From Schizophyllum amplum (taxonomy: Eukaryota; Basidiomycota; Agaricomycetes; Agaricales; Schizophyllaceae), in contig VDMD01000028.1 of assembly GCA_007026445.1 (NCBI GenBank), positions 248,001-312,000 of the forward strand: DNA of 64,000 bases. Direction: 5' to 3'. A model generated the notes under the pieces. That model made no database searches, was not told where the DNA came from, and saw only the letters and a program-made list of their open reading frames with translations. Shown in pieces: positions 20,781 through 49,400 of the stretch (positions are counted from its first letter, which is position 1; the number at the start of each line of letters is the position of its first letter). Position numbers and translations under genes: made by a program.

Positions 20781-23132
20781 TCACTGCTTGCTGCCTGGCG
20801 CCGCCGCCGCCTCCCGAGCCTTCCGCTCCAGCTCGAGCGCCCGCGCCTTATTCCAAATGTCTACGCTGACCTCCGGAACGTGATACGACAACGCGACCAG
20901 CCGCGCCAGCAACATGCGCAAGATCAGGTCATCGGAGGTCATCTTCGCCGCCTGCCGCTCCTTCACGAACTCGTTCTCAATGTGCTGCGCAGGATGGATA
21001 GTCAGCGCTACGCTGTCAGAAAGCGAGACGCAGTCAAGGAGAAACACGCCGTCAGGAGGAACACGCCGTCAAGGAAGAACACGCAGTCAAGAAAGAACAC
21101 GCTATCAGGAGAAACACGCATTCAACAACGAACGCGCAGGCAAGAAAGAAGACGCAGCTGATACAACAGAGAGCATACAATCGAAAGCAAACAACGCACC
21201 TCAGCAGCCTCTTCGCCCACTTTCGCCGTGCCGACCATGGCGCCGCCGACGAGGGCGCGGAAAGCTTCGAGTTTGTCGGGGTCGGGCAGCTTGATCGCGT
21301 CGGCCGGTTTATAGAGCGCATCAGGCGGGAGCTGTTCCCCGGAAGGTGGCGCGAAGGGTACGTTGACTGTGGTCTGCTGGGGGTGTGAGGACGCGCAATG
21401 ATAGGTGAAGAGAGCACACAGTGACATGTGAAGAGAGCACACAATGACCGGTGAAAAGAGCCAACGGCAGGTGAAGAGAGCACACAATGACAGTTGTACA
21501 GAGCACACAACGACAGGTGTGCAGACACAACGACATGCGAACAGAGCCCACCACTCACATTGAAAAACGTGCTCTTCCGGCCCTCGGCCAGGACGACGAA
21601 CGACACGTCCGTCTCGAAGCCAAAGTTGCTGAAGGGGAAGACGTAGTTGAGGACCTGGTCCTTCATCATCTCCTGCGTCGCGTGCAGGTTGCGCAGGCCT
21701 GAGGGGGGCGTTCGCGTCAGCGGTGTTCGGGGTCTGACCACCGAATTCCTCCATATGGCTGAAGCCCTCCAATCCGCCACCCAAATGAATGAAGTCCCAC
21801 TCACCCCGTTCCGTGACTCCACCCTCGCTCAGCCCGCCCTCAGTGATCAAACAGACGCTGCCTTTGGGCAGCTGAAGCCAGCCGCTGACCAGATCCTCGT
21901 CCCTCGACTCGGGCGCAAACTGGGTGGTATTAATAGTCTCCAGCGACAACGGTATGGCCGAGACAGAGGGAAACAAGAGGGACAGCGCGTGCCGCAGGGT
22001 CGGCAGATTGGTGGAACCAGGCGGAGGTGCTGGAAATCGCGACAGCGTCAGGGATGGTGGCAGGATGGGCGGGTTTCGGCTCTGACTTGTAAGGAGGGTC
22101 AGCTGCTACGTGTGTCGGGAAAAGTATGAGCGTACACTTTCGCCATTGCACACAGCAGGACCCACTCGGCGGCGAAGCGGTCGCCGCCCAATGCCTCGTC
22201 TGCTAGCCAGGATACCAGCTCGCTCCGCAGGTCTTGTACGGACGAGGAAGATGGGGCGTAGGGAAATACTCGAGGTATAATGGTCGGAGGTAAAGGCTGG
22301 CTGAACAGGACGTGCAGAGTAGGCACAAGCGGTGGTGTGGCCGCAGGGTCCATATCAGCGACCTGCAAGCTATGGGTACAGCGTTAGTTCTCATCAATGG
22401 GTTGTAAATGTAGGGTGTACCTCTCGCTAGTCAGAATGCCTATAAAATCATGGATATCTGTGGATTTTAGCGCCTCTGCCTTTGACGTGTCGTAGATCTG
22501 TCATGGTCATTGAGAGAAGGCACCAGTCGAGGACAGGACGCCTTACTTTGAGCTGCATGCCAACGTGTGGCTCTGCATGTAAGGGATATTTGTGGGGACG
22601 TGATGACTTGTGTGATGAGGCACTAGCTATAATTCATGAGTGGAGGTCTTTTGTAAAGGGTAGATCGCGCACCTTCGCTGCCTTCGAGATCGGACCAGAC
22701 GCTGCGGCCAGGGATGGAGACGGCCCACATTACACTGGACTCTTTCAAGTCATTGTAATCGAGTGCAGATGTTGTCGAGGCTTCTTCAGTTGCACCCCAG
22801 CCGCCACATGCGCCCGATGATAGCTTCGAGAGGTACATCTCGGTTGGCGGCAAGGTATCTTGTATCATCGCTCGAAACGCAACGAGAGAAGACTCCTTGT
22901 AGATATGGGGAGGCGTCGATGTGTCCATCACGGGGATCTTGCCGACAGTCAGGTCAAGACGCGATCGGGTGCACGCGTCGCGTACCTCATTAAGCGCGTC
23001 TTTGAAGATATCTGCAAAGTAGGACGCGACTTTTGCAGAAAAATCCTGTCCATCGTCTTTGGACTTCTGATAAAAGTCCTGAAGCACGCGATGGGGATCG
23101 CGGAGGGCGTCGGACGGGAGGGAGCTGACCAT
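20781..23132 (-). CDS. MCMBP: Mini-chromosome maintenance complex-binding protein (MCMBP / ETG1 family)
   Basis: MCMBP binds MCM subunits and promotes assembly and unloading of the replicative helicase in the nucleus. Minus-strand exons give about 550-600 residues. The N-terminal block is MVSSLPSDALRDPHRVLQDF with SYFADIFKDALNEVRDA and the FRAMIQDTLPPTEMYLSKL strand pair; the middle block is DIHDFIGILTSERLQVADMD; the C-terminal block has LRNLHATQEMMKDQVLNYVF, DVSFVVLAEGRKSTFF and DDLILRMLLARLVALSYHVP, ending AAAAPGSKQ. The ATG at 23132 is preferred over an in-frame one at 23201 because the conserved N-terminus starts there. Two introns near the 3' end are about 215 nt (20985-21199) and 185 nt (21374-21558), three to four times the local norm, and are filled with tandem repeats. 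The start lies 134 bp from divergent CDC50. Confidence 0.88.
21036..21160 (+). repeat. Minisatellite in an MCMBP intron, about 17-bp unit
   Basis: About six to seven imperfect units of the type GGAGAAACACGCCGTCA lie inside the intron 20985-21199. The units keep the core AACACGC and diverge at the ends. They account for most of the extra length of this intron. Confidence 0.85.
21398..21548 (+). repeat. Minisatellite in a second MCMBP intron, about 23-bp unit
   Basis: About six to seven imperfect units containing GTGAAGAGAGCACACAATGA lie inside the intron 21374-21558. The unit is unrelated to the one in the neighbouring intron. Confidence 0.85.
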
Positions 23133-24691: not shown

Positions 24692-24831
24692 ATGGGCCCT
24701 GGGTATGGCACGGACGCTGAGGCGAGCGATTTGTTCTACCACTTACGACCACCCTGTAATCCACCGCTGCATACCCTGCACGCCCGTAATTAGGATGCTG
24801 ATATTTATGACGACCACCATGTACTATCCCG

Positions 24832-25975
24832 TCACGACGGTGCCGTGTAGCCCATGCCCTGACATCGAACGATGTGCAAACCGGCGTCGTTCGTGGTGAC
24901 GGTGAATCTGGCTTCCGTGAGCTGTTCTGCCACCCATATTGCCGTCCTGAGGAAAGTCAGTAGCGCACAACAGCTCCAAGAAGCTAGGAACTGACTTTGT
25001 ATGCAATGTCAGGTCATCTTTGCCAACGTTCAGGCTGCTTTCACCAGCGGCGAGGGCCATGAAGATGATGACTTGGTCTTGCAGCCACTCGTCCACGCAG
25101 CCACCATTTGTGAGGCCCTTCACGAGCTCCCGCGCCGCCTCTTCACCTTTCGACGCAGCGCTTGCGCCCTTCTTCCCCACCGCGCTGCCGCCGATGATAC
25201 CCCCGCCCTCGAGCTCGGCCCAGAGAACGACGCCGCTCCCCGCGCCGGACGTGTTGTCGTTGCGTTCGCGCGTGTACTCAATGTCGATGTCCACGCCCTC
25301 CAGCGCGGGGTATGTGCCGAGGACGTCGCGCGCGCCCTGGGCCATCTGCTCGGCCAGCGCACGCGGCACGCCCGCGACGTGCGCGATGCCACCAACGCGC
25401 TTAACGGCGCCGCGTTCGAGGAGCGTAACCGGCGTCAGCGGGCCCGCGACCGGGCGGACGAGGACGTCCAACCGTCCGCCGCCTCGGGGGTAGTATCCGC
25501 GGCGCGCGATGTGCAGGTCCGCCTCCACCCCGAATGCGCGCCGGCAGAAGGGGAGGAGGACGCGCTGCGCGTAGTCGGCCTGCGGGGCCTGTGTGGCGTT
25601 CGTGCCGCCGAGGAGCGTGAGGCTGGTCGGTGCGGGGTCGCGGGAGAAGGCTAGCAGCGGGAGCGCGACTTGCAGGAGAAGGGTCGTAGCGCCGGCAGTG
25701 ATGGCGTCGCCCGTGTAAGCGCGGCCGGTGGTGATGCGCGTAGGGGCGAAGTCGACGGAGGCGGAGGCCACGGTGGCGCCTTTGAGCTGGGCGGCGCTGA
25801 TCTCGGCGGCGAGCTGCAGGCCGGCGGCGTGCTGGCTTTTGAGTCCTGGCGGATTGCGGCTGGCGCGGATGTTGTGGATGGAGATGGGTGTGGTGAGGAG
25901 GGCGGCGAGGGAGACGCTGTTGCGCAAGATCTGGCCCCCGCCTTCGAGGACGCTGCCGTCGATGACCTTGGCCAT
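24832..25975 (-). CDS. RTCA: RNA 3'-terminal phosphate cyclase (RtcA type)
   Basis: Converts RNA 3'-phosphate ends to 2',3'-cyclic phosphate using ATP through an AMP-histidine intermediate. Exon 1 (25975-24996) and exon 2 (24946-24832) join across a 49-nt intron, giving about 365 residues. Visible: VLEGGGQILRNSVSLAALL at the N-terminus, RASRNPPGLKSQH, the substrate loop GATTLLLQVALPLL, and the RTC signature ARRGYYPRGGG. The catalytic His lies in LTLHTKTAIWVAEQL and is spelled across the splice junction. The C-terminus VRCQGMGYTAPS matches the RTCA subtype. Presence of the catalytic His argues against the inactive nucleolar paralogue Rcl1. The ATG at 25975 begins the conserved part; an upstream in-frame ATG at 26062 adds an unconserved leader. 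Confidence 0.92.
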
Positions 25976-26456
25976 GGCAGCACGGTGCATGCGCAGACTA
26001 ATGATATATTCTGAGTACCTGTTCTGGATTCGAGGGAATTCAGACTTTGAACACTTTGACAACCTATCGGCGATGGTTCAAGTCAGGATGTCTGTGACAA
26101 GGATGTGACGTTGAACATATACGTCACGTGCCCAGTCTGAGTCACGCCGCTCACCAGGTGCCGTCCTTGCTAGCATTTGTACATCGCGTTGACTTCCACG
26201 TAGACCGCCATCCAGTGGCTCACCATGCAAGCTCGAACGGGATAAATCGCAAGCCATATCTCCGTTTGCCCAATGTCTTTTCTGCTGCTCTCTGTGTAGT
26301 ATGCCGCACTGATGCCGCATTAATTCAGCCACCTCGTTCGAGAAGTACGGATAGCAGCCGCTTCCTCGAGGCTGACTCAGGGGACCTGGGCGCCACTTTG
26401 CCTGACTATACTTATAAGGATTGTAGCACGCTCTACGACGTGACCTTTTTGCTCCC
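25976..26456. promoter_or_regulatory. Divergent promoter region, RTCA / SDR-1
   Basis: 481 bp between divergent starts. On the plus strand a TATAAGG lies at 26413-26419, about 44 bases before the SDR-1 ATG, a good core-promoter position. No gene is seen. Confidence 0.55.
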
Positions 26457-31423: not shown

Positions 31424-34400
31424 ATGTCCACCTCACCTGTGAGATACGCCCAGCTGGGCAAGAGCGGTCTCCGCGTGTCAGTGCCGATTGTACGTCGCGT
31501 GCAGTCAATCAATACGCTCAGTATGCCGTTGATTCCGTAAAATTAATCACTTGCGTATCACAAGTGGAAATCTCGCGTGACATCACTATGAGGGGTCTTG
31601 GAACGTGCATCTCAGCTGCCGCACGAACAAGTGAGCCCCCGCAAACACAAGTGAGGTGGCCCGCAAACACAAGTGAAAACCCGCGAACACAAGTGAAGTA
31701 GCCCGCATGAGTCACGTGGGGAGGCTGGGTGAACAAGTGAGAATGCCGATCGCACAAGTCAGTCTGCCGTACGACTAAGTCAGTGGTCCGCAGAGACATG
31801 TTAACGACTTCCCCTGGCATGTCTGCGGCTAGTGTTGCCGTCAAGTCAAGGTCAAGTCCGACTCGAGTCATGCACGTGTAGCGACTCGAGTCGACTCGAG
31901 TCGGTCCCCGTGCCCAAGTCAAGTCAAGTCAAGTCATGCAAAAGGGGAAGCACCACGTCACGTTTACCCATATGGAATACAATGTCGACGAGCGTCGTGC
32001 GCGCGCGCGTCCGCGACGCGCATGTCTCTCTCCTTGACTTCGAAGTAGGTAGAATTACGGGATGGAGACCACCTGAGAATCCTGTAGTGTCTGAGGAGAT
32101 GCTATACAGTCAATAAAATCTATTATGAGCGCGTGTGGACAGTCCTCAAGCTCGCGACGAAAGCAATCCTTGAGAAGCACAAGAAGAGTCTTGTCCTCTC
32201 CCTGCCGTTCGTTGGGTGTCAGTGGTCGCGCAATTTCCTTCCTCGCTCCCCAAGTCATATCCATCAGCTTTCGCGCCTCTTCGTGCTTGCCCTGCAGAAC
32301 AAGCTCCCTGAACACCTGCCTATCTTTCTCCGTCTGTTCCAGCCGTGCCGCGTGCGCAATCCTCTTCGGTTGCCACCAGACCCTCCGTAAAGCTTAGCTC
32401 TTGTTGACGGACCGTGTACTTCAAGATCTGCAGCATCTCCATCATCTCCGGTCGCAAATTTCCGCGCTTGAGGTCGTCGGTTTGCTTGCTCGAGGAGAAA
32501 ACTCGCTCGCATGGCACTGCTGACGCCTGGACCGGTAGAATATCCATGGCGGCGCGGAACCCGTATCCGCTGATGAACGTCCCGGGAGGCGGTCCCGAGG
32601 ACATTTGAGGTACGGTAGAGTAGTACTCTGGCGTCGGCCATGCAGGAACCCGCGCGTCTTGAGCAGAGTCATAGTAATGGTGCGCTGAGTGCGACATGTG
32701 GGGTGCAACAGACCTCGAATTCAGAGCTTATAAATGCATATTCCGGGGCTGAGCTACAGAGCTGTACGGTTGAGGTAGCATCGCCCAACATGAGCTTTCC
32801 AGCCACATTGAGGCGAGGCGCGTCGAAATGCACGATGGGCGAAAACACGATGCATAAATCTAATAAATTGACGTCAGTCACAGCCTGTCACCGGCCACGA
32901 GGTGATGACGGCGGCGCACGACTCGGAGGTGGGGGCGGGCAGTCTTGCAATGATTCACGACTCGGTACTTTGCATTCAGAGAATAGGGAGGACTTTTTGG
33001 ACTTTGTAGGTCCATCGTCGATCACTCGGGTGCGCGCCCCGGTGACATCAATCGGCCATCAGACAAGTCACTCGAGTTGCGCGACAAGTCAAGTCAAGTC
33101 GCGACTTGATGCCTTTTCAGGAAGGCAAGTCACAACTTGACCTGACTTGGGTGCCAAGTCGACTTGACTTGACGGCAACACTATCTGCGGCCCTAATTCG
33201 TGAAATACCTTCCTTTTTGGGATTGGTCACGGTCACAGAGCGTGATATTCACGTGCTTAATTTGAAATATTCTCGCAGTTGACTTGCTGTGTGGATCGCC
33301 GACTTAGTCGTACGGCAGGCTGACTTGTGTGTGCGGCATCCTCACTTGCTCACGCGGACTTCCTCACATGAGTTTTCGGCACTTTCACTTGTATTTTCGG
33401 CGGCTTCACTTGTGTTTGCGGCGAGTTCACTTGTGTTCGCGGCGAGTTCACTTGTGTTTGCGGGGCCTTACTTGCTCATGCGGCATCTTGTCTTATTCGT
33501 GCGGGCAGCTGGCATGTGCGTCCGAAGACCCTTCATAGTAGTGCTACTCGGAATTATCACTTGTAGCACGCAAATGATTAAATTTACGGAATCAACGGCA
33601 TACGCTCAGTGACATTGCTAACCGATCTCTTCACGTATCCAGGTTGGCGCCATGAGCTACGGGAATCCAAAATGGGCGGTACGCGAGTGCGATAAACAAG
33701 TTCGAAGTGTGTGTTGACCCTCTATACCTGCCAGGCCGCCGACGAGTCGGGTCAATGGGTGAAGGGCGAGGACGAGGCTCTTCCCATCTTGAAGGCTGCA
33801 TGGGATCGCGGGATCAAGTACGCACTGTGCACGCCGATGCGCATACTTACTGAAGCCCTTCATAGCACCATCGACACATCGAACAACTACTCGAACGGCG
33901 ATTCCGAGCGCGTTGTCGCTAAATTCATTGAGAAGGTACGCGTCGCAGTATACATTCAAGCTCTGCATTCTCACTATTCTTATAGTACCACATCCCGCGT
34001 GAGGAAATTGTCATCGCGACCAAGTGCTGGGGGCTCGTAGGAAAGGGCGACGACCACGACCTCTTGACATACGCCCAATTCCCGACCATCAACAACCGCA
34101 AGGAATACGTTAACCAGTCTGGCCTTTCGCGTACAGCGATCTTCAACGCCGTCGAGGGATCGCTGGCGCGCCTGAACACGACGTACATCGACCTCTACCA
34201 GATCCACCGTTTCGATTTCACGACGCCCCCCGAGGAGACCATGAAGGCCTTGCACGATCTCGTTGAGTTAGGCAAGGTTCGCTACATCGGCGCCAGCTCT
34301 ATGCGCTGCTGGCAGTTTGCGCTCCTCAACGAGGTGGCGGAGAAGAATGGATGGACGAAATTTGTCAGCATGCAAGACGAATACTCGCTCGTCTATCGTG

Positions 34401-40383: not shown

Positions 40384-41947
40384 TGGGCGTTTCTGGGTGT
40401 TTGTGTCGTAGCCACGAAGGGAGAACGTGGCAAGTTCAACCGTGACAGGATCACGCTGCGGACCCACAACGTCGGTCTCGGGGCGTGTGGCGAGGCGTCG
40501 GCGATGTACTGGTGATATGCTTTCTAAACTAAACACAAAAGCACGGCACGATGTCAGCGGCTGGTGGGCGGGATGATAATGTCGGGATGTCACTGGACGA
40601 CCCTCGGGGGCCTGGCACACCCGTGTCCGCGTCGCAGATCCGGGACCAGGGTAGGAGGCGGGCACGGAGTGGACATTGGCACAACACGAAGTCAACAACG
40701 CGCTCACCCAACTGACTAGCGATCGGTACAACGGGGGTATTTACAGAGTGGACGAAGGACTGAGATGGCAGTCAGCTTGGGCTAACTTGGTACGCCTACC
40801 ATTGCATTGAGTTGAATTCATGCGAAGCGGAATCACCGCGCATACCCACGCTGACACATCCTGGTCGTTCGGTGCTCGAACTTGCGGCCAAGTCGAAGTA
40901 CAGTAATCTCGAAGTGGTTTACCGCAGGTTCACGCGTTCACAGTTAGACGCTGCCTCTGGTCAGCGGGACTTCTGGACGACAATGCATGTTGTCGCGCGG
41001 CGAAGATTCATGGGTATGGTATAATGCATCCTGTTCGATAATTCGAAAGCGATGAACAGCAGACATTCGGAGCCCATCGCAGAATCGTCGTCGATGCAGC
41101 TTTTATCAACTTCAATCAAGTTCAAGGCCGCGAGCTCGAGTTCAACCCGACCTGGCCTGCGTAGTCGTTCACTACCTAGTATATGTGATTGGCACAGAGT
41201 ACGTCCGTTGTCTACAGATGCTCCTACGCCGTGTAACGGATGCGCTCCTACTCCGCGGGTCGGGCCCGATGCATATACCTCGACGGTGGAGTGTTAACGT
41301 TGAAGTTGGCTCGCCAGCGCGTTGGTGAGTTAGGTAATGAAATGGACTAAACGAACCCCTTCATCCTCGACTCCCGCCATTTTTTTGGTAACGACCCGAT
41401 CAAGTGCAACCAATCACTTTTACGTGATGCGCGCTTTTCGACCCGTACATACCGCCCCAGCCGCCAATTTTTTTATCTGTCAGCGCTTGTCCTTTCTTTC
41501 TTTGCTTCTGGCTGTCGTTATACCGAGTCGCTTGTTTTCTTTTATCTCAACTTAGGTCGATCTGTGTTGATTGGAGAGCCGTTCGGCAAGGGATTCGTTG
41601 TCGCGCGAGGTGCGTCATTCGGCAACAGCCGTGACTCGTCATCGTGGGAATAGCCCTCGACATCGCGATCGACTGGATGGGCCACGACGCTGCCGCGGGA
41701 GATCGTGTATACAGCGCACCTCTGGTCGTGTCCTACACACGCATCAGCAATACAAGTCACAAGAGCGCTCCATACGTCTATTCCGCCCGTCTACCTACCC
41801 ATCTACGAGTTCGCATTTCTCACAACGGGCGGTCTTCTCACATTGCTACTCAGGCCTATTCGAGTGCGAACTCAAGTCTCTGCGCTACTGATGTACCGCT
41901 GTACTTGTAAACTCGTACTCGTAAGTCCCTTCGTCTCGCTGCTTACG
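40384..41947. other. Accessory DNA without a recognised gene
   Basis: Only short frames without recognisable domains. A plus-strand stretch near 41556-41650, preceded by an acceptor-like CTTAG, reads SVLIGEPFGKGFVVARGASF before a stop and looks coding-like, but nothing supports a full gene. Confidence 0.35.
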
Positions 41948-42965
41948 CCGGACTGATCGTGATTGCAGCGCGTTCGCCGCCGCCTTCATCCATTCTCGTA
42001 AGTCTTCATTCACGCTCACTTGTTCTTGCTGACCACATTCGCAGGAAATCTCGTTACGAGCGGCACGGTGCCTTCGCCGTCGTCGCCGATGAGCGGGACC
42101 GCGGCGACGTCCACCACCGCTGTGCCCATGCACGCCGCAACCGTGGCAGGGGACGAGGAGATGGGTGCGGATGCGGCGGCATCGTCGAGCCCCAACGTCA
42201 ACACAAGGTGCGTACTCGTTGTTCATGACAGCGCTCTCGACGCTGACAACGACCCAGCTGCCGACATGGTCGACCATGCACGAAGCGCCCACAACGTCCC
42301 ACACAACGAGCATGACGTCGCCCGGCTGTCAGCATCGCCGACTCGTCCAGACCGCTGTCAAGGGGAGCCGATCGCGGACCGGGAACTTCTCGCCACCACC
42401 GTCGTCGCCGCCGCCGCCACCCGCGACGAGCTCGCCGTCGACCCCCTCGTCGCCGCCGTCACCGTCGTCCATCTCGCACGGCGAAGCGCTCGTCATCAAC
42501 GGTGCCGGCAGCGAGAAGAGACGGTGATCGCACAATCGATCGCCTCTGCTTCTCACCACCACCATGCCCGACGAGTCGCGTCCTGGATGCGGTCGACGAC
42601 GAGCTCGATGTCCTCATCGACGTTGGGATGCCCCGGTGAGTCTGCCGTCAACGCGAACGACGAGCGCGAACTGACACGTCCAGGGTCGATCGACGCGACG
42701 CGACGCGAGTAGGCGCCAGACTTGCACCCGCGTGCACTCGACGGGCGGCGGGACGGGCACGCGGTAGCCACCGCCAACGACGCGCTCGACGTCGTCTGTA
42801 TCGGACAGAGGTGTGTACCTCGCCGTTCCCCGCTGCGAGCTGCACTGACACAATGTAGGCGCGAGTCGAGAAACACGCCGCGCCCAGTGTCGCCGCCGGA
42901 CGCATCGCTCCCCACGCACTCCCCGCTCTCCCCATCCACACAACACGATGGACGAACGCTATGCG
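41948..42965 (+). other. Possible low-complexity multi-exon ORF leading into the module array
   Basis: Several GT-AG flanked stretches read as Ala/Ser/Pro/Thr-rich peptide. One exon (about 42044-42207) reads NLVTSGTVPSPSSPMSGTAA and ends SSPNVNT before a GTGCGT donor; another near 42550-42630 contains VLDAVDDELDVLIDVG before GTGAGT. Joining them in one frame is not straightforward. It could be the 5' part of the gene that contains the tandem modules downstream, a disordered protein, or chance open frames in GC-rich repetitive DNA. Confidence 0.25.
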
Positions 42966-45900
42966 GCCCCGAAACCGCCGGAGGCCTGCGCGGGATTGCC
43001 CTGCGGGGAGCTTGATGCGAGGTAAGTACACCCCTTGTCCTGCTTATAGAACAAAACAAAAAAACCCCGCCAACCCCCCTCCAACCTGTATCCCCGACTC
43101 ATATTGACGGTGTCCCAGACGTTCTTATTCAGAACTGCGAGCCGCCGGAGGCCTGCGTGCGATCGCCCTGCGGGGAACTGTATGCGAGGTACTCAGGTAA
43201 GTACCCCCTTGACCGTCCGTCCGACCCCCCCACCCGCTGCCTCACATTATATTTCAGAACGCGGACTGACGTTCATATAGACGACCCATTTTTGACCCCC
43301 GAGCCGCCGGAGGCGAGCGTGCTGTTGCCCCGCGGGGAATAATTGATGACGACTGCGAAAGGTACGCCCTCACCCGCTCGTTCGTCGAATCTCCGCTGAT
43401 AAACGTGCACCGAACCCAGGTCTTTTCATCGGGGGCGTATTGATACGACCTCCGCGTACCTTCCGCTGCGTCGCGGGCGTGCGCCATGCCACACGACGGG
43501 GGAATTTAGTCTCACGGGTCAGACTCTTCTCACAGAAGACGGGGGGAAAGGTCAGGGGGAATTATCGCCAATTTCCGAGCACGGTACGTCCGATTTCTCG
43601 ATATTTTGCTCACAAACGTGCACCGACCCTAGGGTATCTTCGGCTTGGAATGTACATACGACCTACCTGCGACCCCCCGAAGCGTTTCGGACGTGCTTCA
43701 AAGCGCGTTCCGGGGGACAGTTGCTAGTCTCCAAGGCAGACGTTCAGGGAAGACAGTTGCTCTCGGCACGGCGGGTAAGCCCGCCCTCTCGTCAATCGAG
43801 TTTCTGCTGAAGGATGTGCACCAGGTTCTCAATACATATTATGGTCCACATGACCTCCCTGCAGCCCTTGACAAGTCGCGGGCGTGCCTCACGCCGCTCG
43901 TCGGGGGACGTTTGACCCTGTCACCAAAGGTAAGCCCCCTTCCCTCTTTTTAACCAAAATTTCGCTCATAAGCGTGCACCGACCCTAGGTCCTTTTCATT
44001 GGGGGATATGTATATGACCGCCCACACTCCGTAGAGGCGTCGCGGACGTGCTACAAAGCGCGTCGAGTGTCGCTCTTGGTGCGGCAGGTAAGCCCTTCCC
44101 CTCGTCGGTTCGATTACTGTTCATAAACGTGCACCAAGGCCAGGTTTCCGATATAGATTATAGTGCATACGACCTCTCTGCACCTCCCGCTGCGGTACGA
44201 GCGGTCCCCCCGCTCCGGGAACGGGGGAATCATCGTCGATTTCGTTGGAAGGTACGTGCCCACCTTTGTTGACCGGAATTTCGCTGATAAATGTGCACCA
44301 ACCCCTAGGTTATCAGCGCGGGGGAACATGCATATGTCACACACGTACCTCGTCGCGAGCTGCGAGCGGTGCCCCCGTTCCAGAGACGGGGGATTATTGA
44401 CGGTTTCGCTGGAAGGTATGCCCTCACCTTCGTTAGTCAGACTTCCGCTGATAATTGTGCACCAACCCTAGGTTATCGACGTTGGTGGACATATGTACGA
44501 TCGTCACATACCCTCCGAGGCCTTGCGAGCGCGCCCCCGCTGCAGGACGGGGAGATTATCGTCGATTTTCACGGGAGGTACGCTCCCGCCTTGTTTATCC
44601 AATTTTCGCCACTAAATGTGCACCGACCCCGCGTTCTCAGTACAGATTATGGTACATATGACCTCCCTGAAGCCGTAGGAGCGTCGCGGGCGCGCGTCGC
44701 GCCGCTCGTCTGGGAACTCTTGACCCCGCCACCAAAGGTACCCCCCCTCCCCCTTGTTCGCTGAAATTCCGTCTATACTATGCACTGACCCCAGTTATCT
44801 TTGTTGATGGATGTCGTTAGTATGACGCCCCCGCAGGACACAGAGGGCTCACGGATGTTCTGACAGCGCATGGATCTCGTCGCGGCAGGTAAGCCCTCCC
44901 CCTCGCCGGCCAAATCTGTGCTCATAAACGTGCACCAACCTCAGGTTTGCGATACAGAATATGGTATATATGACTTCCCTGTAGCCATGGGCGAGTTGAC
45001 GGTATGCCTCACCTCGTCTTGACCCTGACACTGAAGGTAAGCCCCCCCTGCCCCTTGTTCGTCGAGATTTCGCTACTAAATGTGCACCAAACACCCAGAC
45101 CTTGTCCGCTTCGGGATACACATATGACCTCAAAGCACCCTCTCGTGCGCGGCGCGCGGGCGCTACGCGCGACGCACCGAGACGGGATCGATTTCCGTCC
45201 AGGTAAGCCCTCCACCTCTGTTAGCCGTATCTCGCTCATAAACGTGCACCGACTCCAGGATCTCAATACAGAATATGGTATATACGAACCCCCCTGTAGC
45301 CCCAGGAGAGTCGAAGGCGTGCCTCACGGCGCTCGTCGAGTGACACTGACCCTGCCACTGCAGGTAAGCCCCCTCCCCCTTGTTTGCCGATTATTCGCTG
45401 ATAAACGTGCACCAAACCCAGGCCTTTTTCGTTTTGGGATATGCATATGGCCTCAAAGCACCTTCTGATGCGCCGCAGGCGTGCGCTGCGCACCGCGACG
45501 GGAGAGCTATCGTCGATATTTCGTCCAGGTAAGCCCCTCCCCCCCACCTCTGGCAGCTGGATTTTCGCTCATAAACGTGCACCAACCCCAGCCTTTTTTT
45601 GCAGGGGGATATACATGCGACCATCATGTTTCCTTTGAGGCGTCGGAGACGCCAGCCCCGCCCCGCGTGGGGGAGAATTTATTGTGAGGTAGGCCTCGAC
45701 CCTTGTCCATCGCAATACCGCTCACAAACGTGCACCAACCTCAGGTTTTTTTCGATGGGGGATATACATATGTAACCGTCGAGGCATTGCGGGTGCTCCC
45801 CGCGTCGCACGTCGGGGGAATTATGTCGCTTTTCGTGCAAGGTATGCCCCCATCCCCTTGTTCGTCAAATGCTCGCTCATAACGTGCACTCAACCTAGGT

Positions 45901-46045
45901 TCTTTTTGCTGGCGAGGGTATATACGAACCCTCGGTACCCTCTGGCGTGTGTCTCGTCGCTGGGGGTCACCGAGTTAAGTCCCGCTGGCATATTGCTCGT
46001 TGCCTACGTCCTGACCGCGGCGCCCCTCGTCCAGTTCGTGTGGTA
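42966..46045 (+). repeat. Tandem array of about 19 intron-exon modules (period about 160 bp)
   Basis: Three diverged leading modules (exons ending 43021, 43196 and 43361, with the core PPEACxxxPCGEL) precede sixteen regular ones. Their exon-like parts are 43420-43583, 43633-43774, 43825-43929, 43989-44087, 44144-44251, 44309-44415, 44472-44577, 44633-44737, 44795-44888, 44945-45036, 45099-45202, 45259-45363, 45422-45528, 45592-45688, 45745-45841 and 45899 onward. The intervening segments are 49-63 nt, mostly 55-58. Each starts GTAAGC, GTACGC or GTATGC, has a pyrimidine-rich middle, and ends with a branch-site-like CTCAT/CTGAT, then AAACGTGCACCAACCYCAG. The exons share a peptide core near V-[LFI]-x3-G-Y-x-Y-[DE]-x2-x-P with a variable tail. 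Twelve of sixteen are open in that frame; modules 1, 9, 10 and 14 have a stop or shift. After the last module an open frame ends with a hydrophobic stretch AGILLVAYVLTAAPLVQFVW. Confidence 0.8.
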
Positions 46046-46560
46046 GGCATGTGCATATGCACGCCGTGACGGCATGCAGGTACCATCGAGTGCGTCTTGG
46101 CTCTGTGCGATGCATACTAGAGGGGGCACGTTGTCGAAGGTGAGTATACGTTTCGTAGCTCGGACCCCGCCGCGGAAGAATTATACAGGGGGTGGGATCG
46201 GTATATCTTTATCACATTGCTGTACCTATGTAGTCGAATTGACTGAGTTTGCGGGCGCGAAATTGGCGGCGACGTGAGTACAAGGTTGAAGGCGGGGAGC
46301 GCCCTCCGCCGCGCCTTCGCCTACCCTTCCCCGACATGTCGCCTCACATCTACCGCGTCGCTTCCCTCACATTCTCCTCTACAGAGACATCGCCGCGCTA
46401 CTCCATCCCCCCTCCCTCCTCTTTGTGCCGTAGGTCCCCCCTCCCTCGCGACCACCTCTCACGCGCACTTCGGTCATTGTCTCGCCGTTCGTTTGGCTCA
46501 CAAACTCGTATATTCAAGTCTACACTACGTACATGGGCAGTAGTACATACGTCGTCCACG
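46046..46560. other. Accessory DNA downstream of the module array
   Basis: Nothing identifiable beyond short GC-rich frames. A donor-like GTGAGTA near 46140 resembles those in the array. Confidence 0.3.
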
Positions 46561-47060
46561 GTTAGCAAGCGGCTATGGTTGTAGATCTTGGACAAAACCC
46601 AGGGCGACTGACTCACTAGCAGACCCCCTTCACGCACTTGCGAGTCAGTATCGAGACTCACGACACTGACTTGGATCACGCGTTTTCGACTCACTAGTAA
46701 CACAGTGCGCCTCATCCGTCCGAGCGCGGTGAGGGGTGGCGGCGATGTGAACGGTGATCCCCCTTTACGACGTCGGGTGCGTGCCTTGTGTCGGGTGCGT
46801 ACCTCGCCCCCCGCCGCTTTATGACTGTAGATCCTGGACAAAACCCAGGATAGTGACCGTGAGTCGCGATTTTCGCGTGAAAATAGAGACGTGAGTCGCA
46901 TTTTTCGCGTGAAAGTACGAGTGAATCGTGACTTTCGCGTGATTGATCACGCGTCTAGAGAGTCACTCACCGCGTGAGCTCACGCGTTCGAGAGTCAGTC
47001 GTGAGTGAGGGCCCCCGAAATTTCAGAATCACGCGAAAACAGTGACTCCCTCCCCGCGTG
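46561..47060. repeat. Repeat-rich block with duplicated motif and CGCGTGA palindromes
   Basis: The motif GTAGATC(T/C)TGGACAAAAC followed by CCAGG occurs at 46581-46603 and again at 46827-46849. After the second copy come three imperfect units of GTGAGTCGCGATTTTCGCGT (about 46860-46940). A perfect 16-base palindrome CGCGTGAGCTCACGCG lies at 46971-46986 and a near-palindrome of the same CGCGTGA type at about 46937-46954. This resembles the end of a decayed DNA transposon; no transposase or target duplication was found. Confidence 0.5.
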
Positions 47061-48596
47061 ATTGAACCACGACCGAGAGTCGCTACCTACAAGAAGTAAA
47101 CTAATTTTCTTATCTTTAGCACCTGGTACTTGACCTGGTAAATTCGGTTTGGAGCGCCGAATGAAGGAGTACCAATTTCGATCCATTGTAAGTACGGGTC
47201 GTGAGTGCACAAAGCTTAATATGTGAGTCAAGCTCGTATTACGCTAAGCTTCTGTGAGAGAAACAAGGACATTCAAGGCATCCGGCGTGCTCCCGGCGCC
47301 GTTGAGCGCAACGACGGCGATGCTCGGGTATCGGTCCGAGCCGCCGACTGTCCGATCTCTCCCAGCGTCCACCACTGCGACGCGGTCTTGGTTGCTATTC
47401 ACCCCTTCCTCGACTTATCGAACCATCTCAAGACGCATTCCCCCAACTTTGACTCGATTTTGGTGCGAGACGGGGCCCTCAAGAGCGCACGGGAGAAGAA
47501 ATGGCGGGCGAGGCGCTGTGAGCGCTCACCCGCCGAGGTGCGTCCGTTGTACCCCGCTCCGAGGCTGCGCAACCAAACGATCTAATTCGGTACAGACTGT
47601 ACTGCACGGAGTGGCGCAGACACAGCCAGCGGTTGCGCGATCGACCCCGCGATGGCCGAAGTTTGCGGCGCTCGCCCTCGAAGCGATTGGCAAAGGCGGT
47701 CGAGCAAGAGCAAGCGCCATGCGCGAGTGGGAGGCAAGGCGAGTAATGCACTGGCGCTGCTTGCTACCCGTGAAGGCTGCGCTGGATGTTGGTACGTGAT
47801 CACCCGCGATACTCTAGCCATCGCCCCAACGAACGCGTGCGCGGTACCAGCACCCGTGCCCGTCCATCTCTTGCCCCGATGCCCGTCCATCTCTTGCCCC
47901 CGCCGCAGGACCGTTTTCTCTCACCTTACGTGCTCGCTTCCGATTTGCCCGCATCTCTACGAATATCCATCACACCTCCGAACGGCTGACAGGGCTACAG
48001 ATCGCGCGCGGGCGTCATCGCACCCGACCTGCCCTTACATCGCGCCCGCGCACCACTTCACGGCACCACCAATCAGTTCTAGCTCGATCCGCCCCTCCTC
48101 CTCCTCCCCCCCTTCCCCGTTCCCGCATCGCGCGGCAGGCAGGTGGCCGGAGAGATGCTGCGATTTCGCACTCGCCGTCGATCATGCACTGTTGCGCCGT
48201 GCTTGCCGGCATACCGCTGGCGGTACGGTACGATGCCTTCTACATGTACTGACTTATATGAACAGACTCAGAATGCATATACATCATTGACTCCTATGTA
48301 CTATCTTTCTGCAGTACAGCACCAACGCCGTCTGCGGTGGCGAGCGCGCCATCCCCGCGCCACCCCCGCGCCACACGGCCCATACCCGCGTCAGTCTGTA
48401 AACTACTAATTGTCTGGTTATAATCGGGGTCAATTTTAAACAATGCGCCTGGGAACCCATCTAACGCACGAGAGATAGTGAATCTGAAACGCGTGATAGT
48501 GTGGACCGCGTCATTATGAAAACGGCTGTAATTAATTACAAGTGGGGCTTGACGTCCTCTGACGTGCTTTCAGCTGCAGTGAGGGAGAAGGAGCTT
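47061..48596. other. Accessory DNA with open frames of unknown status
   Basis: Two overlapping plus-strand frames (47223-47585 and 47254-47799) are long but unrecognised and lack a clear splice pattern. One contains SVHHCDAVLVAIHPFLDLSN. I do not call a gene. From about 48420 the DNA becomes markedly more AT-rich than its surroundings. Confidence 0.3.
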
Positions 48597-48840
48597 CACT
48601 ACAAGAGATATTCAATAACCTTCAGAGATTACTGCATGATTATCGAGAGCTTATCATGTCTAAGCCCATAATAAGGTCATATAGGTTACTGAGAAGTATA
48701 GAGAACTCTGGCAGTCCTGATTGGCTGAGGATTCTTTATGCCACTCAATAACCTTATCGGCTTTGTTCTAAGTCTTTATATCATTTTATCACAATAATCA
48801 TGCAGTAAGGGCCGGAGATTATTGTATCTCTCTTGTAGTG
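48597..48840. repeat. AT-rich imperfect inverted repeat, about 47-bp arms
   Basis: CACTACAAGAGATATTCAAT at 48597 onward and the reverse complement of 48793-48840, starting CACTACAAGAGAGATACAAT, align over about 47 bases including a shared TTACTGCATGATTAT, with roughly a quarter of positions differing. The loop is about 150 bp. It looks like the remains of a small inverted-repeat element (MITE-like). Confidence 0.6.
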
Positions 48841-49400
48841 CTTGTGGCACGAAACGATTGTTCACGGGTTCTCGCGTGTTTTTAGAGTAGCAGCTTGCAA
48901 CCGAGGGGCTGAGAGTACTGTACACTGCTGTCCTGATGCCGTATATATTCAGATATAACAGTTCAGTGCTTTTCCTTTCAGTTGTGTTAAACGAGAGGTT
49001 TGGGATGGCCCTAACCCTCTGAGGGCGGCCTGAGGTGCGCATAGCTCGCCGCTATGGATATTGCTGGGATATTCTACACATCTGTATCCAAAGACTTGAG
49101 ACAACTTGGTTCGAACCGGGTTCGAACTTCAATCGGTCGGTGCGCGGGCTTTTGCCCCATTTCCTAACTCACCACACGACACACGCAGTGGTGGCCCTCT
49201 TGAAACTAGTGATGGCTTTGTATTTTGTCAGCGCGATGATCTCACACAGAGATATTTGCCTGCTCAGACACTCAAGAGCGCTTGCGAAGAGCTCGAGAGC
49301 AAGATAGGAGTAAGATTAGTTGCTTAGCCAGTGATATGATACTTAACTTGATATGATAGGAAGAAGCTGATATAAAAATATTATCACTGTCACTGTCATG
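48841..49400. other. Flank between the AT-rich repeat and tRNA-Asp
   Basis: No gene seen. Contains a doubled GGTTCGAAC motif near 49110-49130 that is not part of a tRNA. Confidence 0.4.

Follow-up and report, generated by a model that had tools for sequence, protein, structure and literature searches.

A tandem array of intron-plus-exon modules within a Helitron2-like transposable element of Schizophyllum amplum

Introduction

Central tandem repeats are a known component of Helitron-like elements, and to our knowledge there is no agreed role for them. Rows of intron-exon units are known from Dscam-type arrays, in which the exons are alternative, coding and keep the reading frame.

Helitron2 elements have an inverted repeat at the 5' end and an inverted copy of it, beside a hairpin, about 20-40 bp short of the 3' end (PMC3627910; PMC5148889). 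Relatives in Chaetomium are reported without a 5' hairpin (PMC5148889). Non-autonomous Helentrons of oyster contain central arrays of 140-180-bp units (PMC7492417), and DINE-1-like elements of Drosophila can contain tandem repeats (PMC4067079). No description of spliceable tandem modules in a Helitron was found in the open-licence papers searched.

Here we describe such a locus in the mushroom Schizophyllum amplum, whose assembly comprises 49.65 Mb in 309 contigs, designated by C-numbers in the following. The window, i. e. the whole stretch of 64,000 nucleotides that was analysed, belongs to contig C201. Its positions 42966-46045 hold a tandem array, flanked in the window by ordinary genes (CNOT1, an MFS transporter, CDC50, RTC at 24824-26077, and UTP20). 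Among the named records listed, those of Schizophyllum come closest to the RTC protein. Tandem repeats of short period (units of 18-23 bp) occur elsewhere in the window, at 21028-21157, 21396-21551, 31627-31784 and 33384-33463.

Results

Architecture of the array

The array consists of about 19 intron-plus-exon modules, as the initial annotation had proposed: 16 with delimited introns and three diverged ones at the head (Table 1). The 16 introns measure 49-63 nt and the exons between them mostly 92-108 nt, giving a period of about 160 bp. The earlier estimate of about 150-165 bp describes most of the array, with 148-166 bp from donor to donor, but not two units of 222 and 191 bp, where the exon has an insertion. 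These two insertions, of about 49 and 36 bp, are both absent from the near-identical copy of the array on contig C2. The longer one, a very short mobile sequence, has the direct repeat GGGGGAATT on either side and matches 25 other genome rows. The array stayed below the reporting threshold of Tandem Repeats Finder.

A GTAAGC or GTACGC donor had been claimed for every unit. GTAAGC is present in 8/16 introns and GTACGC or GTACGT in a further 4/16, but the others read GTATGC (2/16), GTACCC (1/16) and GTAGGC (1/16). The CAG/TAG acceptor, also claimed throughout, was found in 15 of the 16 introns, the exception being the intron at 44578, which ends in GCG. The near-invariant motif was recovered in the form of AAACGTGCACC-like motifs repeated across 43401 to 45880, and the two exon types do alternate over part of the array.

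Table 1. Coordinates of the array and of the surrounding element in the window
Feature	Position	Strand	Remark
Whole Helitron2-like element, about 7.9 kb, without Rep match	41321..49210	+	Borders common to other loci; C68 and C273 have Rep between the same two ends
Left end, 126-488 bp of it common to other family members; possibly promoter-like	41321..41810	+	
5' asymmetric terminal inverted repeat TGGTGAGTTAGGTAATG	41323..41339	+	16/17 identical to the inverted right copy
Three diverged head modules	42975..43361 (at about 42975, 43142, 43276)	+	Sequence and cross-matches
Array intron 1	43362..43419	+	
Insertion of about 49 bp in first array exon	43506..43561	+	Absent from C2 copy
Array intron 2	43584..43632	+	
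Array intron 3	43775..43824	+	
Array intron 4	43930..43988	+	
Array intron 5	44088..44143	+	
Array intron 6	44252..44308	+	
Array intron 7	44416..44471	+	
Array intron 8	44578..44632	+	Acceptor lost (GCG), end approximate
Array intron 9	44738..44794	+	
Array intron 10	44889..44944	+	
Array intron 11	45037..45098	+	
Array intron 12	45203..45258	+	
Array intron 13	45364..45421	+	
Array intron 14	45529..45591	+	
Array intron 15	45689..45744	+	
Array intron 16	45842..45898	+	
3' inverted repeat copy, 36 bp before right end	49158..49174	-	One mismatch to family sequence (copy at 49175)
Right-end hairpin CACCAC...GTGGTG	49170..49193	+	Fold -6.8 kcal/mol

The array lies inside a mobile element

The array is the interior of a transposable element and not a free-standing gene. 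The left border at 41321 is sharp and common to loci with differing flanks; the sequence at the left is TTGGTGAGTTAGGwAATG. A 23-base left end occurs at 12 places in the genome, and a related 15-mer at 25 places, compared with about 0.2 expected by our own arithmetic. The right part of the element matches C2:125323-125668 and two pieces at C242:108258-108980. The right end is common to the window, C2 and C242 up to GAAACTAGT, and in all three the sequence beyond is unrelated. The elements differ in size (about 7.9 kb in the window, 23.9 kb on C2 and 13.8 kb on C242), and those on C2 and C242 also lack a Rep match. A search with the right-end pattern gave ten matches in the genome, one of which (at the left border of C242) is false, and none for the reversed control.

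The arrangement of the ends is Helitron2-like, with an inverted repeat at the 5' end and its inverted copy (16/17 bp) shortly before the right end. The right-end hairpin lies beside the inverted copy; two stretches gave folding z scores of -1.64 and -1.88, with 7 and 12 of 200 shuffles folding equally well. At the other end, folding 45 nt of the left end revealed no 5' hairpin (z 0.49). The ends do not have the 5' TC and 3' CTRR of canonical Helitrons (Helitron1): the left end is TTGG, though the right end CTAGT would fit CTRR. No direct repeat flanks the elements of the window and C2, and one of 48 bp (46/48 identical) was found at C242. The element there (C242:95194-109010) belongs to the same family, and its direct repeat is unusually long for a target duplication and not expected of canonical Helitrons.

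Several further features of the family were observed. Between left end and head, the copies on C2 and C303 have a different sequence in place of 41808-42501, which gives the elements a mosaic structure. At 46574-46861, a block of 113 bp, which has the opposite orientation in the C2 copy, lies between two fragments of a further dispersed repeat (TATGRYTGTAGATCYTGGACAAAACCCAGG). At 48597-48840 an imperfect palindrome of 245 bp, MITE-like and 91-100% identical at more than 12 other places in the genome, is nested in the Helitron2-like element. One member of the left-end family (C9:78600-79914) has a chromodomain reading frame downstream of its left end (PF00385, 2e-10). The stretch in question is also contained in C242:274900-276400; the PF00385 scan covered the C9 locus only.

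Partner elements with a Rep-helicase

The Rep-helicase domain PF14214 has 18 matches in the genome. For four of them an exact left end lies 14.7-19.6 kb upstream on the same strand; the three other possible arrangements of left end and PF14214 do not occur within 25 kb. If both were evenly scattered, 0.11 such pairings would be expected, a figure to be read with the uneven distribution of transposon-rich regions in mind. C68 and C273 each have, on one strand and in this order, a left end, Rep and a right end, spanning about 30.1 and 28.5 kb, with 10.9 kb between Rep and right end. On C290, where no exact left end is present, Rep and right end are likewise 10.9 kb apart, and C267 and C297 have Rep together with a left end. 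PF14214 had no match on C201 or C2. The Rep-helicase is thus found in partner elements with the same ends, as in Helitron2, and the window element itself has the layout of the oyster elements (HINE): the array (43362-45898) lies within Helitron-like ends and no Rep is inside. In view of these features we call the window element Helitron2-like; since no 5' hairpin could be detected, it is not a proven member of Helitron2.

KDZ or another cut-and-paste transposon was considered as well and is ruled out by the ends and by position. KDZ transposase has 77 matches in the genome. Among the 48 that were placed relative to the left ends, one lies up to 25 kb downstream (C240, on the opposite strand) and one upstream, and none falls within the elements of C2 or C242.

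Other copies of the array

A profile of the introns found 104 matches in 15 loci including the window, with the duplicate contig C233 left out. Since the profile was built from the 16 window introns, all of which match it, its matches count as evidence only in the other copies. Of the scored matches, 94 of 96 retain GT and 75 of 76 AG; both fractions are flattered, as alignments that stop short of an end are unscored there. The array of the C2 element is 96-97% identical to that of the window. Besides these two there are 13 arrays or fragments, and two of them, on C240 and C255, lie downstream of an exact left end. For these two the right-end pattern search found no right end. Altogether, the 25 kb upstream contain an exact left end of the same strand for 4/15 arrays or fragments (window, C2, C240, C255) and none for 11/15, which counts against our preferred interpretation given below; exact end patterns would miss divergent ends. 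Hence the position of the window array within an element is firmly established, and that of the whole array family only in part. The initial annotation had seen an argument against a spliced gene in the possibility that the 160-bp unit recurs as a non-genic satellite; copies do exist elsewhere in the genome, and the argument holds to this extent.

The exons show no coding constraint

It had been suggested that repeated exon duplication built a hypervariable protein. When the modules were aligned by codon position, substitutions were distributed 39/35/38 over the three positions (35 nearest exon pairs with at least 72% identity and at least 85 aligned bases, 762 codons before the first gap), i. 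e. at the equal rates which the initial annotation itself had named as speaking against coding. Only 6 of the 61 indels in the nearest exon pairs are multiples of three. The supposed codon-sized steps in exon length were not seen either: the lengths modulo 3 are 27/25/27 among 79 exons from all copies except C233, which duplicates C235 (only exons of 80-135 nt with both borders located were counted). A frame-free test detected no periodicity, with 352 of 1170 distances being multiples of three (0.301, permutation mean 0.319, sd 0.011); in simulations, purifying selection with omega 0.3 gave 0.36-0.43, and omega 0.5 was indistinguishable from none. Substitutions in the Y-x-Y-D core are not amino-acid-preserving, contrary to the claim. 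With 1.58 bits, the third position of the codon for the second Tyr is one of the more variable columns, and the A and G that occur there produce stops in several modules of other copies. Codon periodicity is also absent from the head region (41850-43420) in comparison with eight paralogous loci, where 57/214 indels are multiples of three. Overall, no coding constraint is seen in the exons, and the evolution of a hypervariable protein by exon duplication is not supported.

A protein repeat family or positive selection was rejected on the even codon-position counts over the 35 nearest pairs. Structured exon RNA was rejected, too: the folding z scores of the 79 exons average -0.57 on the plus and -0.29 on the minus strand (5/79 below -2 per strand), and the two Rfam matches are far under the gathering scores.

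The element could still carry a family of hypervariable multi-exon protein genes whose observed copies are all in decay. After in-silico splicing the longest open stretches reach 274 codons in the window and 256 in C2, where 200 random sequences gave 95% points of 214 and 218 and maxima of 259 and 269 codons, and stops are fewest in frame 0 (42/2736 codons, vs 55/2709 in frame 1 and 87/2684 in frame 2). In addition, two gene models exist, BD626DRAFT_572723 (window) and BD626DRAFT_577554, both from S. amplum contigs that bear the array; they were the only matches in protein-database searches, and the former runs straight through the intron at 43775-43824. However, the two long stretches count as one, the copies that hold them being near-identical, and stops apparently lie just before the one in C2. 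Moreover, codon periodicity is absent in every frame, exon lengths are random modulo 3, and a decaying coding gene would shed its splice sites as fast as its codons. We therefore regard a decaying protein family as improbable.

Splice signals change less than their surroundings

Three pairs of close copies (window-C2, C38-C2 and C240-C281) were compared over 28 intron pairs of at least 85% identity, which were taken from the profile alignment without requiring GT or AG. Donor positions 1-5 and acceptor positions -3 to -1 showed 0/209 changes, A-2 and G-1 being scored in only 22 of the 28 intron pairs, and GTGCACC showed 1/203. The other intron positions had 36/1262 changes and the exon flanks 135/3500, with a few bases counted twice where neighbouring flanks overlap. 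The core differs from the other intron positions with p = 7e-4 and from the exon flanks with p = 6e-6, both uncorrected. In the window and C2 copies alike, the acceptor at 44632 has been lost; it apparently lies outside the scored splice positions. Within the repeat unit, conservation is highest at donor, acceptor and GTGCACC, which also change more slowly than the rest between close copies, in line with what had been noticed for the intron half of the module. Judged from these comparisons, the splice signals seem to be protected by selection.

Another view would be that the array represents plain satellite-like central repeats as in HINE/DINE-1, whose splice-like signals go back to a single ancestral unit with an intron and no longer serve any purpose. 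The period of about 160 bp and the place between the ends fit the known central repeats (PMC7492417); the exons drift freely, and one acceptor is lost in two copies. Yet in three copy pairs the splice positions and GTGCACC changed more slowly than neighbouring bases. Mainly because of this slower change we prefer spliced RNA to a dead repeat, and consider the satellite view rather unlikely.

GTGCACC and the 160-bp spacing might also serve DNA-level binding, for replication, packaging or silencing of the element, instead of splicing. GTGCAC is exact in 77 of 100 scored introns and one base off in 19, it is palindromic, and it is regularly spaced. But the donor, about 45-50 bp away, is equally conserved, and the motif lies between the branch-like sequence and the acceptor. 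Binding at the DNA level thus appears highly improbable as the reason for the conservation.

Discussion

Our preferred interpretation, which we consider probable on the basis of the sequence comparisons, is that the array constitutes the central repeats of a Helitron2-like element that is non-autonomous, each unit combining a splice-competent intron with a largely non-coding exon. Transcription would start at the left end of the element and yield a long RNA, from which the spliceosome would take out the introns of about 56 nt. The exons would be largely non-coding spacer, and the number of modules could shift by unequal exchange. Selection would then favour copies with spliceable repeats. As to the advantage, we can only guess, for example, that unspliced or stalled transposon RNA would be silenced or would harm the host. 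Silencing of badly spliced transposon RNA has reportedly been described in Cryptococcus, and escape from such silencing may be what is gained. Against this interpretation stand the missing 5' hairpin, the acceptor lost in two copies, the 48-bp direct repeat at C242, and spliced open stretches above the random 95% point.

With Helitron2, including FoHeli of Fusarium oxysporum, the S. amplum elements share the placement of the inverted repeats, the 3' hairpin and a Rep-helicase partner with the same ends (PMC3627910, PMC5148889). In contrast to these descriptions, no 5' hairpin is predicted, the end sequences are different, the elements reach 28-30 kb, one copy has a 48-bp direct repeat, and splice-competent repeats are inside. 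HINE/DINE-1 elements are likewise non-autonomous with an array of 140-180-bp units, up to 29 in number, between the ends (PMC7492417, PMC4067079). Their repeats are described there as satellite-like, whereas here the units are intron plus exon with little-changed splice signals and the host is a basidiomycete. The gene-carrying Helitrons of Pleurotus ostreatus likewise belong to a basidiomycete and have extra transcribed sequence of unknown origin; this cargo is described as genes (PMC4289320), whereas that of S. amplum is a tandem intron-exon array. The row of intron-exon units is also reminiscent of Dscam. Unlike there, the S. amplum exons are neither coding nor frame-keeping.

A more far-reaching idea, which we put forward tentatively and think somewhat doubtful, is that a rolling-circle family adopted a spliceosomal intron plus a non-coding exon as its repeat unit and that selection kept the unit spliceable. 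A long RNA would then be cut repeatedly, and the benefit would lie at the RNA level (silencing escape, export, or masking inside host transcripts) and not in a protein.

What is new here is the known central-array layout in a mushroom, with an intron-plus-exon unit. The array also shows how automatic annotation turns such repeats into a multi-exon protein model. If the unit is indeed an intron with protected splice signals, the central repeats of Helitron-like elements would have a testable function, and the survival of a transposon would be tied to the splicing machinery.
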